From the NCBI RefSeq assembly GCF_036669915.1, contig NC_089319.1, positions 16,988,012-17,052,011 of the forward strand: DNA of 64,000 nt, in the 5' to 3' direction. The position numbers and the translations under genes are program-made. The notes below the pieces were generated by a model. That model was not told the origin of the DNA. It did no database searches and saw only the letters and a list, made by a program, of their open reading frames with translations. Shown in pieces: positions 3,214 through 26,039 of the stretch (the stretch's first letter is position 1; every line of letters begins with the position of its first letter). The stretch is from Pocillopora verrucosa (lineage: Eukaryota > Cnidaria > Anthozoa > Scleractinia > Pocilloporidae).

Positions 3214-3937
3214 TCATGACACCTCCAGGGTTTTTGCTGATCTGCAAGTTAACTATTCACCTGGTCAAACAAGCTATGATGCACATTATATTGGACATGC
3301 AATTTTATCCCCTCAACAGAGTACAAAGTCTGGTCCAAACAATAAACCTCACCCCACTAATGTGACTTTTTTGCGCCAAAATCCACGATTTATTTGTGAG
3401 CCAATCTGTTATGTGAAGACCAGTGTAGATTCCCCCGTGAAATACCCATCATGGTGGCCAGAAGAATTGCCAGAAAAATCCACCAGGATCCCTCAAAAAA
3501 GCTTTGATTCAACTGCGCGCTCAGATTATCGTCCTCCACCATTCTCCCCTGGAAAGATAACAAGGTACAGCAGTAACCTTGCCCTGCAAGTGGTACCTGC
3601 AGGGGCCTCTGGGATCCTACCTCAAGCTGCATATAAAACAGGACATACAACACCAAAGGTTGTAGAGAAAATCTCTTATGAACATCAGTTTAACTCAAGA
3701 TTGGATCCCAGTCACCCAATAAGAGGGCGTCGACATGGTAGCTTTATATGGAAGGTTGTGTCTGATTTTGGCAGAAAAAATAGGAAAGGTAGCAAGCCTG
3801 TGGAGTATGCATACATGAAAGATGAATCGGCAGATACAGAGACTGCTCAACCTGCCACAGGAAATGCTGAGAATGGGGAGAAAACTGTAGAGGTTAATGA
3901 TCCAGAAGGGACCCTTCCTTCATCTGATGAAAATTGA
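3214..3937 (+). CDS. Terminal coding exon of a Trp/Pro-rich, possibly axonemal protein (partial)
   Basis: The exon starts after a clear acceptor (TATTTGCAG, ending 3213) in phase 2 and runs open for about 240 codons to a TGA at 3935-3937. The protein begins HDTSRVFADLQVNYSPGQ and includes SPVKYPSWWPEELP, SFDSTARSDY and DPSHPIRGRRHGSF. It ends in an acidic Glu/Asp/Thr tail. The S..STARSDY phrase and many Pro/Tyr/Trp turns resemble small ciliary or microtubule-inner proteins of the uncharacterised C2orf73 type; that assignment is from memory and tentative. Upstream exons are unresolved. An ATG at 2578 with a donor at 2605/2606 is a candidate first exon, but it leaves phase 1 and so needs another exon in between. 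Not a shadow: the reading frame has sensible composition and the opposite strand does not. Confidence 0.6.
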
Positions 3938-6422: not shown

Positions 6423-9189
6423 TTACAACGCAGTTGTTACTGATTTATCATCTAAGCCGCCTTCATAACAGGGATTGTCGCTGGCCTTTCCCTGTTCTAC
6501 GTCTTCTGCATTCTTTTTCATTTGATGATGCGATGTGTGTCGATCCATTTGAAAAGCTGCAAACGGGTACAGAAACATCACGACGAAGAAATCCTCTGCC
6601 ATGCTGCCATGTATTCCATCCTCTAATCTCATTCCCGTTCTGATGGCTGTTGCTACACCAAAGAACAAAAAGAGAACTGCCCATCCGACATAAGAGATTC
6701 CTTCTACTGGAATCAACTCTGCTACCATCATGGCAATCCAGGAATAAAATGGCACACCCATGAGGACCATGCGACAGGCCAAGGCTAAGGGGCTAATGCC
6801 TTTCTTCCTGTCTTCTGCAATGGCTATCACGTACCAGGGAGCAACAATGGCGAGAAAAAGTTTGAAGAAACCTCTACTGGAAGGTCGAGAGATCGGATGG
6901 AACAAAGTCACGTTGAACTGTGGACCGTTTGCATCCAAGTCGCCATCTTCCATTTGAACAGCTCGCCACAATGCCACACACATGAAACACAATAGGATGG
7001 TGTAAGGAAGGCCAACTACAATGGACACTGCTTGTAAGGCGTTCAGAGCATCTGTCCCTCCAGCATACAGCAGAGCAGTTGCGGTAGCACCCTCCGTCAG
7101 GGCCCAAAAGATACGTTGGGGTATGGGGGGGTCGGGATCACCGTTGGCAGAGAGGCAATCTATGACCAGTGAACCACTGTCCGAGCTGGTGACAAAGTAA
7201 AGAATTATACCAATTAAGGACACGATGGACAAGAAGTCTCCAAGGTCACCATACTGGTCCATCAGGTCGAACCACATGTCATTCTTTGGGCGACAGGAGA
7301 GTCGGTAAAAGCCTTGAAATGACTTTGTGGCAGTTTTCCCTCCGAATGGCGACGAGCAGGTGACGTTCGCCAAGGCTGCGTTTCGTTCCATTCTTATCCC
7401 TGCTCCACCGAAAATGGTGAGCCACAGAAAGGTGTAGAAGATAGGTGCAGTGAGGGTAGCATTGATAAATTCTCTGATCGTTCGGCCTCGTGAAATCTTC
7501 GCGATGAACATTCCAACGAAAGGGGACCAAGCAATCCACCAACCCCAGTAGAAGATGGTCCAGTCATTCATCCACTCAGCGGCTTCGAGTTTATCTGGGG
7601 CATTACCGAGTTGTGCAAAAGCATCTGTGTGGAATCCAACCTGTACAACATACTGGAGATAATATCCAATGCTCTGAACATAGAGGTTGAGTAGATACCA
7701 TGTATCATCGTAGAACAAAATAATCAACATCAGCATCATACCGATTACAAAACATAGTTCGCTTAGCCGCCTGATGCCAAGTTTCAAACCACTGATGACA
7801 GATAAAGTTGCACAGGCTGTTACTCCCCAGATGGTGATGATTTGATTAGTAGTACTGAAGGTGATGTTCTTGTTGAGTCGTCTGAAACCAGCGTTGAGCT
7901 GTATGGCACCAAGACCAAGACTGGTGCAGACCCCAAACATGGTGCACACCACTGATAGGATGTCGATGAAGTCGCCAACCCATCCGAATATTCCGTTTCC
8001 AAGTAGAGGATAGAAACAGGATCGCATTGTCATCGGAAGACCCTTTCGGTAGCTGAGGAAGGCTAGGAGAAGTCCAACCACTACGTAGACAATCCATCCG
8101 TGAATTCCCCAGTGAAAGAAAGTGAGGTTCATGGCATCCTGGGCCTGTTGGTTGTCGGAATACCTAACGGAAAGATCAATGTTTGAATATCAGTGGTTCG
8201 TATTTTTGTTTACTTATGACCTCAGGGACCGAGCAAGGGGGTGGGGGGAGGTTGGAGGTCTCTTTTGGGGGAGGGGATCACAAGGTTTTCAGAGGAAAGG
8301 GATGGGGGGGTGGACTGTAGAAAAATGAATGCCAATTAACTGCCAGGAGGGGGGAGGAATTATAGGGATATCACAGAGCCATGTGCAGGAGGGGTCAGAA
8401 TTCAGGTAAGTTTTATCTTTAGTCGTTGGTAAAAGTGATTACGGTGCAAATGAAATGTAATTTGGATTGAACACAGCAAAAAGCGAGGATCATTAATAGA
8501 ATTACTTTTGTCCGAGCAGACGTAAACTGACCTATTCTAGGTTACCACAACCATCGTCTTAAAGTATTGTTATAGTTAAGAGAGGACTTACCTTGCATAA
8601 TATCGATTTCCATAATGTCCAGGTGCATAATGCCAAATGGGCTCCGCTTTTGACAGAGATAAAACAATAGAATAACATAACTCGGTCAACTTCTCTACCT
8701 AATGCTCTTTCGTAAAGCATGGGTCATATTGAAACGATCATCGTACAATGCATGTTTCTGCAGTTAATTTGTCTATTATTTACCTACTCCAAAGTAAAAG
8801 AGACCAATTCCGATACCAGCAGCAAATAACATCGTGAAGTACGTAGCATCGTTGAATTCCGGTTTCTCGTGCGATTTTCCTAGCTTCATTTTGGAATACT
8901 TAGAGAAATAGAGCACAACTATGAACAAAGCCCACGCGTCTTGAGTTCCGATGTAAAGCCAGGTGCATTTCAAAGTTATCCATCTTCGCCATTCGGTCAT
9001 GTCTTCGTTGGCCGCTTTCGCCTCCAATACGCACCATACCACAAAAGCCCAAATAATGAGGGCGGAAAATAGAGAAACAACTGGGTTGAGACGAACACTG
9101 AATGAACAGCTCAGTCGGCCGAGTTGGCAACAAGGAATCTTGAAACGAAACCATCGACATTTCTCTGATGCCCTTTCTTTGACATTCAT
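6423..9189 (-). CDS. BCCT family transporter (betaine/carnitine/choline type)
   Basis: A sodium-coupled plasma-membrane importer of quaternary-ammonium osmolytes is the expected role; the exact substrate cannot be read. The CDS is complement(join(6423..8163, 8592..8646, 8784..9189)), 2202 nt, 733 aa. All junctions are GT-AG and in phase. The start is the ATG at 9189, with an in-frame stop 24 nt upstream. Residues ~33-54 (LNPVVSLFSALIIW) are TM1. The glycine-rich TM3 segment AAGIGIGLFYFG then VAEPIWHY spans exons 1-2. The family signature WTIFYWGWWIAWSPFVG, with the Trp cluster that binds betaine in BetP, is at ~355-371, followed by ISRGRTIREF. Length fits BCCTs (about 500-700 aa) plus a ~60-residue charged C-terminal tail. 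BCCTs are mainly bacterial but also known from cnidarians. Neighbours show no functional link. Confidence 0.95.
8225..8400 (+). repeat. G-rich interspersed repeat in BCCT intron 2
   Basis: A G-run-rich stretch ends in a block 'GCCAATTAACTGCCA' followed by more G-runs and 'GATATCACAGAGCC'. A similar arrangement lies at about 44245-44420 (G-runs, then 'ACCAATTAACTGCCA', then 'AACGCAGCC'), so this is a dispersed element and not simple low complexity. No ORF is supported. Confidence 0.5.
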
Positions 9190-20718: not shown

Positions 20719-21543
20719 TCAAAAAATGAATGGAATAAGAGCTCTTCTATTTCTTGGATAAAGTTCTTTACCGGCTAGTCCGTCAAATTCTTGTTGATAT
20801 GCTCTGTGCTTTTTGTATGAATACGTTATCAGTGTTATCAAAGTAGCAAAAAGAAATATGGCTGCTGGCAAAACCCACGAAGTCAAGAAAAATCCCAGCC
20901 ACGATAATATTTCACATAAATAGTGCGGGCATGACACCAGTTCAAACAGACATCCACGCGGCAAAACATGGTGGGATTCGTTAGAAAAGGAATCCTCGCG
21001 TTTCTCCCTTCGAAACTTCCGAAGTTTAAGATGGCAGAGGCCATTACCAAACTCGCCCAACATGAAGATGACAGAGCCAGCCACGACAAGCGCTAGAAAT
21101 GTTTGTCTGTATCCGTTGTCATGGCGTACTGAAATTCCAATCCAGAAAGCGAAGAACCAATAGTAGATAGGTGCTCCTATACTCTCTATGATAGACATTT
21201 TTCTGCGGTAGTCGTGAACAAAGAGAACTTCGATCGTTCGGCGTAAAAAGTGCAACGACCAAAGCCCCACGAAAAGGTACTCTAAATATCGATTTTCGGC
21301 AAATTTCGCATCGTTTGAGACTAGGAGACAACCTGTTGCGGGAAATTTCTTTATGGATATCCCAGGTACTTTCAGAGCTATAAAAAATGCAGCAAGGGTT
21401 CCAATGTAAGTAACACTATTCACAACTACAGGGTTAAATCCATGTCCACTGTTCGCCATGACTGACCTTGAGTAAAGCGATTGCGTGACAAGAATGAAAG
21501 TTACATCAAAATTCACATGGCAACCAGAAGGACAATCAGACAT
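20719..21543 (-). CDS. Intronless TECR-like trans-2,3-enoyl-CoA reductase
   Basis: 274 aa in a single exon, from ATG at 21543. It is a multi-span ER-type membrane protein of the steroid 5-alpha-reductase/TECR superfamily. TECR does the last, NADPH-dependent reduction of very-long-chain fatty acid elongation. Visible signatures are HFLRRTIEVLFVHDY (~98-112), then YYWFFAFWIG (~127-136), then FELVSCPHYLCEI (~200-212), whose Tyr208 matches the catalytic Tyr of human TECR in LVSCPNY, and a C-terminal KKHRAYQQEF...IPFIF. It is shorter than human TECR (308 aa), and I do not recognise the N-terminal ubiquitin-like domain. A second Met at residue 29 could be the real start. Lack of introns among intron-rich neighbours suggests a retrocopy. 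It could also be a different SRD5A-family member. Confidence 0.85.
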   Translation of the reverse strand: MSDCPSGCHVNFDVTFILVTQSLYSRSVMANSGHGFNPVVVNSVTYIGTLAAFFIALKVPGISIKKFPATGCLLVSNDAKFAENRYLEYLFVGLWSLHFLRRTIEVLFVHDYRRKMSIIESIGAPIYYWFFAFWIGISVRHDNGYRQTFLALVVAGSVIFMLGEFGNGLCHLKLRKFRREKREDSFSNESHHVLPRGCLFELVSCPHYLCEILSWLGFFLTSWVLPAAIFLFATLITLITYSYKKHRAYQQEFDGLAGKELYPRNRRALIPFIF

Positions 21544-23940: not shown

Positions 23941-25294
23941 TTAATCAGAAGCCAACAGAGATTGCTTCTGCAGCTTTGTTTTGTATACTTCAAGCATCAA
24001 GTTTTTCAAGTACTCAATCTCCTTAGACAAAGAATTAACTTGTTCTTTGAGTTCACCATTATCCTTCTCAAGCCCAGCAAGTTCTTTTGCTATGACATCT
24101 TGCTCCTCACGCTTTTTGACCCGGTAACGAGTGGCAGCATCTTTGTTCTGCTCCCGCTTTCTTTTCCTTTGCTGTGGAGTTTTAGCCTTTGTTGGTTTGT
24201 CTTTTGGATATGGTGCGTAGTAGTTGACCTTTACACAAGTCGTTGTTGTGGGAGAAATTTCCACAGTCTTCTTGACTGGTGTTTCAGGGGATGAGGGGTT
24301 AGAGAGGCTCTCTTCACTAAGAGAGGCCACTGGGGTTGTTGCCTCGAATAGATCTGACCCAGGGGACAAGACAGAGGGGTGAGACCCCATGTCAACATCA
24401 GGAACACTCTGCAAGGGTGATGTAGGACCAACTTGTTCCTCTGTCACTATTTCTGTGTCAACTATGCATTTATTAGTGGTGAGCAGCTTCCTGAGAATTT
24501 CATCCACATTTGCAAAGAGGTTGCCATCAGAGGATTCTTCTGATACTGGTGAATCTGCAATTTCTGAAGTGACAACACTTTCTGGCTCACTGGAAATACA
24601 TGGTTCTGAAGACGTGAATTCAAAATCCCCAAGGTTCACCAAGTCACCACCATCAACTGAGAGAATTGACTCTGTGCTATGGAACTCGAGTTTCTGTGTC
24701 ATCCAGTCAGAACCTAACAGGCCTCCACCACCGGCTGAAATTCAAAAGAAAACTTTTTGTTAATACTTCAGCACAGACCCTAACCGATAAAAACATCTCC
24801 ATGGCTCTGAGCATCAATGATTCATAATAGAAAATAAGCTGTACAATATTTGATCTCAGCTTACATAACAGAACTGATGCAACAACATGATGCAATAAAA
24901 GTCAGTTGATGAGAAACCTCACTAATTTATTGCGAATAAATTTCTTGTTACACGTATGGACTATTAATGATCAACTCGTGGGGAAATTAGTTTCAGTTTC
25001 GTCCTAAAGGAAGACGGCAGTCATCAATTTGTTCAGTGCCTAGAAAAAAAAATACTGACCTTCAACATCGAATTCCTCAAGTAGATCTGTCGCCGATAAA
25101 CTGAGCGGTGACGAGGCATCGAGTTGATGCTTCAAGGAATCTGTCTCTTCTATGTACACGTCACATTGTTCAAGAGTTCCGCTTTCCCCGAAGATCGGGA
25201 ACGAACTGAAGAGCTCCAGCTCTTCCAGAGTCTGAGATGTCGAAAATAATGAAATGTCTTCCATGTTCTTGGTTTCGTGATACGTTCTGGCCAT
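23941..25294 (-). CDS. ATF4: ATF4 (bZIP activator of the integrated stress response)
   Basis: CDS complement(join(23941..24734, 25060..25294)), 342 aa; junction phase 1. ATF4 is the nuclear bZIP factor made when eIF2-alpha is phosphorylated; it drives amino-acid, redox and ER-stress genes. The C-terminus has a basic region KRKREQNKDAATRYRVKKRE (~268-290), very close to vertebrate ATF4 (EQNK.AATRYR.KKR), followed by a heptad zipper (LEKDNGELKEQVNSLSKEI). LLGSDWMTQKLEF (~84-96) parallels GTDWMLEKMDL of human ATF4. The middle is Ser/Glu-rich. Start is the ATG at 25294; the Met at 25264 (AACATGG) has better context and cannot be excluded. The leader carries two uORFs annotated separately. ATF5 is the only close alternative. 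Confidence 0.93.
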
Positions 25295-25677
25295 CTATAA
25301 TCGATGTAAGAGAGAGAACTCGGGCGCGTTTAGGGAAACTGAAAGTTAAAAATCGAAAACCAACGTAAGTACACGAAATTCGCACGCAATCGAGTTAACA
25401 CTTTTAAATTTAAGTTTCAGAGGCGATTTCGTTCTACATCAACCATTTAATCAACCATATTTAAGATAAGATGCACTTGAATGTTCCTTAGTCGTCTAAC
25501 AGCGATTTTTTTCATCTTCAATTAAGTTTCGTAGTAAACTTAAGAGTAAACAAAAGAACGAAGACACGTTGTTCCAAGGCGATTTTTCTTTTGCGTCGAG
25601 AACTCGCCAAAAAGTTAAATTACTCTGAGTTCCTAAGAATCGGGAAGTATACACATTGACTGAAGTACTTACTCCAT
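25170..25677 (-). promoter_or_regulatory. ATF4 uORF2, spliced and overlapping the main start
   Basis: An ATG at 25677 in optimal context (ACCATGGA) is cut after two bases of codon 2 by a donor GTAAGT (exon end 25673). An acceptor TAACTTTCAG places the next exon at 25338. The joined frame, complement(join(25170..25338, 25673..25677)), encodes 57 aa (MDFPKRARVL...) and stops at 25170, about 125 nt inside the ATF4 CDS in another frame. Human ATF4 uORF2 is 59 codons and also overlaps the CDS out of frame. Such a uORF blocks ATF4 translation when initiation is efficient. Confidence 0.7.
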
Positions 25678-25727
25678 GGTTGTACTGGTGCAAATAAATT
25701 GCACGGAAAGGCTTAGCAGAGAAGCTT

Positions 25728-25739
25728 TCACACCGCCAT
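25728..25739 (-). promoter_or_regulatory. ATF4 uORF1 (three codons)
   Basis: ATG GCG GTG TGA lies on the minus strand in strong context (GAAAATGGCG, purine at -3, G at +4), in the presumed first leader exon. Vertebrate ATF4 also has a three-codon uORF1 that lets ribosomes resume scanning. The match in length and order is seen directly; the function is inferred. It needs a TSS upstream of 25739. Confidence 0.6.
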
Positions 25740-25930
25740 TTTCACAAGGGATGATGAAATTTATCATGAAAGGGTCGTGCCGCGTGTCTTGAAGCCTTGG
25801 CTGATGCAACACCACGCCATAATTAGCAACTGACGTGTCTCTGACCAATCAGCAGCCAGATTTATTTTGAGACAACCAATCAGCGTCAAAACGTTTGACG
25901 TAAGTGAGCTTGACTTACCAGTTGTCAAAC
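25740..25930. promoter_or_regulatory. Putative ATF4 promoter with CCAAT boxes and ATF-type sites
   Basis: Upstream of the leader are TGATGCAAC at 25802-25810 (fits the C/EBP-ATF composite TGATGNAAN), TGACGTG near 25832, ACCAATCAG at 25842 and again at 25875, and TGACGTAAG near 25897. The density of CCAAT boxes and ATF/CRE half-sites suggests stress-responsive autoregulation. These are motif matches only. Confidence 0.45.
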
Positions 25931-26039
25931 TGGTTTCACGTGGACTTTGCACGCCTTTCCACCTGGCTTACGTAGGTGATCCCGTGTTCTCCGTGGGATC
26001 TAGTGTTTGGCGGGAATATTTGGCGGCAAAGAAATGTGG

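Follow-up and report, generated by a model that had tools for sequence, protein, structure and literature searches.

A paired-uORF leader in the ATF4 gene of the coral Pocillopora verrucosa, very probably a member of the known ATF4 switch

The ATF4 gene of the coral Pocillopora verrucosa has a leader with the paired-uORF layout, a reading that is well supported by the sequence given a predicted splice junction (25673/25338). Very probably, the locus is a coral version of the established ATF4 paired-uORF switch, an ordinary but functionally important feature. The two-uORF layout had been proposed in an earlier sequence-only reading of the same DNA, and in this central point that reading stands. 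The window, meaning the whole stretch of DNA analysed, comprises 64,000 nt (GCF_036669915.1, NC_089319.1:16,988,012-17,052,011) and carries ATF4 on its minus strand; all positions below refer to the window, and the features are collected in Table 1. Published leaders are compared on the basis of excerpts from the cited papers.

The main ORF behind the leader encodes an ATF4-type bZIP. The predicted protein, 342 amino acids long, carries a bZIP_1 domain at residues 266-323 (E 3.5e-11); among solved structures, ATF-4 matches it best (PDB 1ci6, E 2.7e-12). When 14 candidates were scored in the 353.4-Mb assembly, the bZIP of this gene was the sole match at E<=0.001, with no second ATF4 bZIP at that threshold. 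Likewise, the assembly yielded no second copy of either 25170-25860 or 25678-26000, and none of the 37 pattern matches returned for leader relatives in viral contigs was confirmed. The acceptor at 24734, which opens the last exon, was picked from three candidates that preserve the frame. Near the CDS start there are two in-frame AUGs, M1 (TTATAGATGG) and M11 (AAGAACATGG), the latter in the better context. The CpG observed/expected ratio is 1.09 to 1.79 across 25600-25001 and goes down to 0-0.55 across 25000-23801, a profile that would fit a 5' end free of methylation followed by a methylated gene body. Elsewhere the window holds ORFs for a BCCT betaine/choline transporter, a 3-oxo-5-alpha-steroid 4-dehydrogenase-like protein and ciliary microtubule inner protein 6.

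Table 1. Features of the ATF4 locus and other ORFs of the window
Feature	Position	Strand	Details and basis
Last exon of ATF4 CDS, with bZIP domain	23941-24734	-	Sequence, domain and structure matches, splice scores
First coding exon of ATF4 CDS	25060-25294	-	M1 at 25294 (TTATAGATGG); in-frame M11 at 25264 (AAGAACATGG)
uORF2, remainder in exon 2	25170-25338	-	57 codons overall; 125-nt overlap with CDS
Predicted leader intron	25339-25672	-	334 nt, GTAAGT...TTTCAG; interrupts uORF2 codon 2; from sequence only
uORF2, first five bases (ATGGA)	25673-25677	-	End of predicted exon 1; AUG at 25677, context ACAACCATGG
uORF1	25728-25739	-	ATG GCG GTG TGA (ATGGCGGTGTGA; peptide MAV, then stop); context GTGAAAATGG, with A at -3 and G at +4
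CARE/AARE-like site	25752-25760	-	TGATGAAAT on + strand
18-codon ORF farther upstream	25764-25820	-	AUG context CTAATTATGG, with A at -3 and G at +4; relevant only with an mRNA start upstream of it
Upstream AUG, weak context	25765-25767	-	CCTTTCATGA; in uORF2 frame; 87-codon ORF through uORF1 if in mRNA and used
Second CARE-like site	25802-25810	-	TGATGCAAC on + strand
UPRE-like site	25831-25838	- (gene strand)	Motif match
Two inverted CCAAT boxes	25843-25882	-	25851-25843 and 25882-25874
Strong donor-like site, CTG|GTAAGT	25913-25918	-	Top score in 26000-23800; an alternative first exon free of AUGs might end here
Other ORFs (BCCT transporter, steroid dehydrogenase-like protein, ciliary protein, respectively)	6423-8132, 20719-21543, 3362-3937		

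Both upstream frames were reproduced from the sequence. The three-codon uORF1, placed correctly by the earlier reading, lies within the permissive size of two to three codons given in the excerpt of PMC4176352 and starts in good context. The order of the two frames and the uORF2 AUG were also read correctly; only the distance from the uORF1 stop to that AUG needs amending, from 51 to 50 nt. As had been claimed, uORF2 is split after five bases, ATGGA being followed directly by the GTAAGT of the predicted intron, and the spliced frame has 57 codons and passes out of frame through the ATF4 start. After splicing, 49 nt separate the uORF2 AUG from the CDS AUG, and the uORF2 stop ends at 25170, which gives the overlap of 125 nt with a CDS that begins at 25294. 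Provided that the predicted junction is used, uORF2 is therefore a long frame overlapping the CDS out of frame.

The leader intron deserves separate consideration. Splice sites were scored with a generic weight matrix and ranked among the 7115 GT and 7712 AG sites of the window. The leader donor (25672) falls within the top 3.7% and the acceptor (before 25338) within the top 5.1%, whereas the sites of the CDS intron score higher (top 1.1% and top 1.8%, respectively). Judged in this way, the leader splice sites appear plausible, if not outstanding. The sequence-only reading had suggested that the intron would allow alternative splicing to disable uORF2. Indeed, in an unspliced leader uORF2 shrinks to ATG-GAG-TAA; however, intron retention also brings in AUGs at 25656, 25515, 25458, 25446 and 25439, with ORFs of 7, 22, 3, 9 and 1 codons, respectively, all of which terminate before 25294. 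Since a leader with a series of short uORFs differs from one devoid of uORFs, these five additional AUGs led us to reject intron retention as a clean off-switch for uORF control.

We then asked how readily such a layout arises by chance. A loose layout was defined as a uORF of at most 4 codons followed by a uORF that overlaps the CDS out of frame by at least 80 nt. The strict layout, defined after the sequence had been seen, has exactly two uAUGs, both with a purine at -3 and G at +4, and a first ORF of at most 4 codons. Dinucleotide-shuffled leaders combined with synonymously shuffled CDS, 20000 for each assumed start, gave the loose layout 833 times for a start at 25766 and 754 times for a start at 25772. 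The strict layout appeared in 0/20000 for each start, but the zero for 25772 is not a fair one, because with that start the real leader has three uAUGs and fails the strict test too. Placing 138-nt stretches of the window before the ATF4 CDS produced 658 loose and no strict layouts among 6388. The frequency of loose layouts follows from the CDS itself: its two out-of-frame frames extend 125 and 145 nt into it, so that out-of-frame uAUGs tend to overlap it far. In 5000 synonymous shuffles, the uORF2 frame stayed open for at least 125 nt in 6.8% of cases. Taken together, the layout is partly beyond chance.

By analogy with published mammalian and fly ATF4, we consider it probable that the leader of this cnidarian gene acts by delayed re-initiation. 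Ribosomes would translate the 3-codon uORF1, after which 40S subunits would go on scanning. With plentiful eIF2-GTP-Met-tRNA they would re-initiate at uORF2 and be carried past the ATF4 start out of frame. Under stress, with eIF2-alpha phosphorylated, more subunits would pass the uORF2 AUG and reload on the 49 nt leading to the ATF4 AUG or, alternatively, ahead of the in-frame AUG at 25264, whose context is better. We favor this mechanism because of the reading frames and their contexts, the identity of the gene as ATF4 and the absence of the strict layout from both chance tests (0/20000 for a start at 25766 and 0/6388), and also because of the reading phase shared with other animals, the GCG codon in uORF1, the eIF2-alpha block around Ser51, the GCN2-type matches and the pair reported in Hydra. 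Against it speaks the short spacing, 50 and 49 nt, in comparison with mammals, where the two uORFs lie about 87 nt apart and the scanning distance from uORF2 to the CDS is 97 nt, roughly twice that of the coral. The AUG at 25767, the chance frequency of loose layouts, a DENR-like exon that stays below its family cut-off and a promoter region lacking the motifs sought in it (TATA box, full CRE, ERSE) also count against it.

Several components of such a switch were sought in the assembly. An eIF2-alpha is encoded there with the block SELSRRRIRS around the serine that we take to be Ser51, and a GCN2-type domain has two matches above the family cut-off. These two HGTP_anticodon2 matches lie 24 kb apart (C13:5691047 and C13:5714983) and are perhaps a tandem pair. 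A DENR-like exon (E 1.6e-14) stays under the whole-family cut-off in a search that matched 4 of 14 control genomes. Five W2-domain matches may stem from eIF5, 5MP or others; two W2-domain exons with identical scores, at C8:16682118 and C8:23680970, are 7 Mb apart on opposite strands and may reflect a recent duplication. For PPP1R15 the assembly gave no match, which shows nothing because none of the control genomes matched either. As a side observation, 74 GFP-family matches were counted by exon in the assembly; those listed are all on C1, many contain stop codons, and two large clusters lie near 28.36-28.79 Mb and 0.67-0.88 Mb. One of the matches resembles the fluorescent proteins amFP486 (best), Dronpa and Azami-Green, which we take to be anthozoan proteins.

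Compared with mammals, the coral gene shares a short uORF1 with a GCG codon, an overlapping uORF2 in the same phase and, according to an excerpt of PMC12839439, a good context of both uORF AUGs. Like its human counterpart, the coral CDS has a choice of in-frame AUGs close to its start, but the human AUG1 and AUG2 are both described as being in medium context and leaky-scanned (PMC11058473, in part), whereas the coral M11 is better than M1. In a short human uORF, a GCG codon leads to DENR-dependent re-initiation (PMC7494916); the "uORF2" of that paper is taken here to be the classical 3-codon uORF1. The coral uORF1 has the same GCG codon, while its last codon, GTG, is not named in the section of PMC7494916 consulted. 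A further difference concerns the stem-loop SL3 that the excerpt of PMC11058473 places in the uORF2/ATF4 overlap of vertebrates: in the coral we found no unusually stable counterpart (z 0.17 for the fold of 25338-25170), and synonymous shuffling gave equal stability to that of the best short hairpin, -10.4 kcal/mol, in 39 of 300 cases. The 40 nt at 25222-25183, which fold into two hairpins at -17.7 kcal/mol, were considered as an SL3-like element and discarded, as short hairpins of equal or greater stability occur in other 125-nt tiles of the CDS. The coral also differs from mammals in its predicted intron within uORF2 codon 2. The literature searched, as far as excerpted, gave no position of a mammalian leader intron relative to uORF2, and part of PMC12839439 describes an internal leader segment that is present in the mammalian V1 variant and absent from V2.

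Outside vertebrates, Drosophila ATF4 (crc-RA) has two uORFs, with an overlap between uORF2 and the CDS of 125 nt, the same figure as in the coral; the uORFs have opposing roles in a reporter, and the excerpt of PMC4433282 from which these statements come mentions no uORF2 intron. The overlap phase is 2 modulo 3 in the coral (125), the fly (125; PMC4433282) and mammals (83; PMC5666893), so that uORF2 and ATF4 stand in the same relative frame in all three. However, because the fly and mammal may share this phase by descent, the agreement of the coral amounts to a 1-in-2 event, and the shared phase is a weak argument for common origin. Hydra is another cnidarian with the paired layout, a likeness that draws on its mention in the text of PMC4176352. 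Yeast GCN4 is alike in its control by uORF re-initiation, but uses four short uORFs instead of a short and an overlapping one (PMC5972666, in part), and we claim no kinship with it. Among the literature matches listed, no title was evidently on the ATF4 uORFs of corals or of Nematostella, and the part of PMC7530721 consulted holds no cnidarian ATF4 result.

Upstream of uORF1, the locus has several promoter-like features. Two CARE-like sites were found where 0.13 would be expected from the whole-window rate, and one UPRE-like site where 0.02 would be expected. By their sequence, these sites may point to transcriptional self-regulation of ATF4 or to an input from the UPR, and the CCAAT boxes together with the CARE-like sites would fit a promoter just upstream of the uORFs. 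A motif scan between 26100 and 25678 returned no TATA box, full CRE or ERSE. This region also contains AUGs at 25767 and 25820, both overlooked by the sequence-only reading. Since the former is in the uORF2 frame, the two-uORF switch would require an mRNA start between 25766 and 25740, or else a bypass of this AUG. Ribosomes are likely to pass over an AUG that lies only a few nucleotides from the cap.

If, on the contrary, the AUG at 25767 were part of the mRNA and used, it would merge with uORF2 and engulf uORF1; the inhibitory unit would then be a single 87-codon ORF, uORF1 would rarely be translated and induction would depend on leaky scanning only. The shared frame makes this arrangement conceivable, and the spacing of the CCAAT boxes would permit a slightly more upstream start, but the context of this AUG is weak, and we regard the scenario as improbable. 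A weak AUG at this place is in any case compatible with delayed re-initiation, because arthropod ATF4 leaders, too, carry an AUG of weak context ahead of uORF1, which has to be skipped or else excluded from the mRNA (PMC4176352, in part). About equally doubtful in our estimation is the idea that the ATGGCG of uORF1 serves mainly as a YY1/TISU core-promoter element just past the start site, with uORF1 as a by-product and control exerted through uORF2 and leaky scanning. Taking the TISU consensus to be SAASATGGCGGC, the uORF1 AUG region (GAAAATGGCGGT) fits at 10 of 12 positions, in a window that holds 12 matches of at least 10 on both strands. TISU is a YY1 site that follows the start site, at positions up to +30 (PMC2518114, in part), but here 10 of 12 falls short of a full match and the start position is a predicted one; moreover, the element and a translated uORF1 are compatible, and both can hold. 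That the upstream AUGs are a chance arrangement with no regulatory role seems very unlikely to us: chance does yield loose layouts in 4 to 10% of cases, but neither of the two tests that used a 138-nt leader gave the strict layout even once, and ATF4 is the gene in which this layout works in flies (PMC4433282, in part) and mammals.

A further possibility complements delayed re-initiation instead of replacing it, namely that the gene has two first exons. A proximal start would give the paired-uORF mRNA, while a distal start, spliced from 25918 to 25338, would give an ATF4 mRNA free of uAUGs and independent of eIF2. The earlier suggestion that the choice of first exon might disable uORF2 thereby gains a concrete donor candidate, on a sequence basis only. 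This donor scores 10.6 bits, against 5.9 bits for 25672, and is the best of 26000-23800; 18 donors as strong occur on both strands of the 64-kb window, or about 0.04 expected per 300 nt of one strand. The tract 26137-25821 has no ATG on the gene strand, so that in a leader running from 26136 with the 25918 donor joined to 25338, the first ATG is the CDS start. Shuffles of 26136-25919 were ATG-free in 4.8% of 5000 cases. A mammalian short variant without uORF2, arising from an alternative promoter or splicing, is mentioned in a review (PMC13163986, in part). On the other hand, the odds of both observations are each about 1 in 20 and were examined post hoc, and the CCAAT and CARE-like sites, lying downstream of 25918, point to the proximal start. 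On balance, we consider two first exons rather unlikely. An elaboration that we hold to be speculative and fairly improbable would make the uORF2 codon-2 intron a promoter-selectable joint, in which the proximal exon would be stress-gated, the distal exon ending at 25919 would be uORF-free and constitutive, and the CARE-like sites would close a feedback loop. If this were true, the choice of ATF4 control would be made at the transcriptional level in addition to the translational one, and the uORF-free isoform would depart from the textbook switch.

Returning to delayed re-initiation and the paired layout that it requires, the sequence-only reading had dated the switch to before the split of cnidarians and bilaterians. 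This is probably right for the paired-uORF layout, but it is not new, because paired ATF4 uORFs across Metazoa except nematodes, with Hydra named, were reported in 2014 (PMC4176352, in part). The argument from size that accompanied the claim is weak. The mammalian uORF2 is given as sixty codons, taken here to include the stop (PMC12839439, in part), and overlaps the CDS by 83 nt (PMC5666893, in part). The likeness of 57 to 59 codons therefore counts for little, because the totals are made up of different parts, 49+125 nt in the coral and 97+83 nt in mammals.

What is specific to the coral locus is thus the position of the intron within uORF2, the paired layout itself being known already, and it is the codon-2 intron together with the strong upstream donor that appears worth following. 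The mapped leader allows the direct design of a reporter for the ATF4 stress response in corals. With it, an anthozoan case probably joins the reported hydrozoan one, and both the reading phase and the intron position can be compared across cnidarians.
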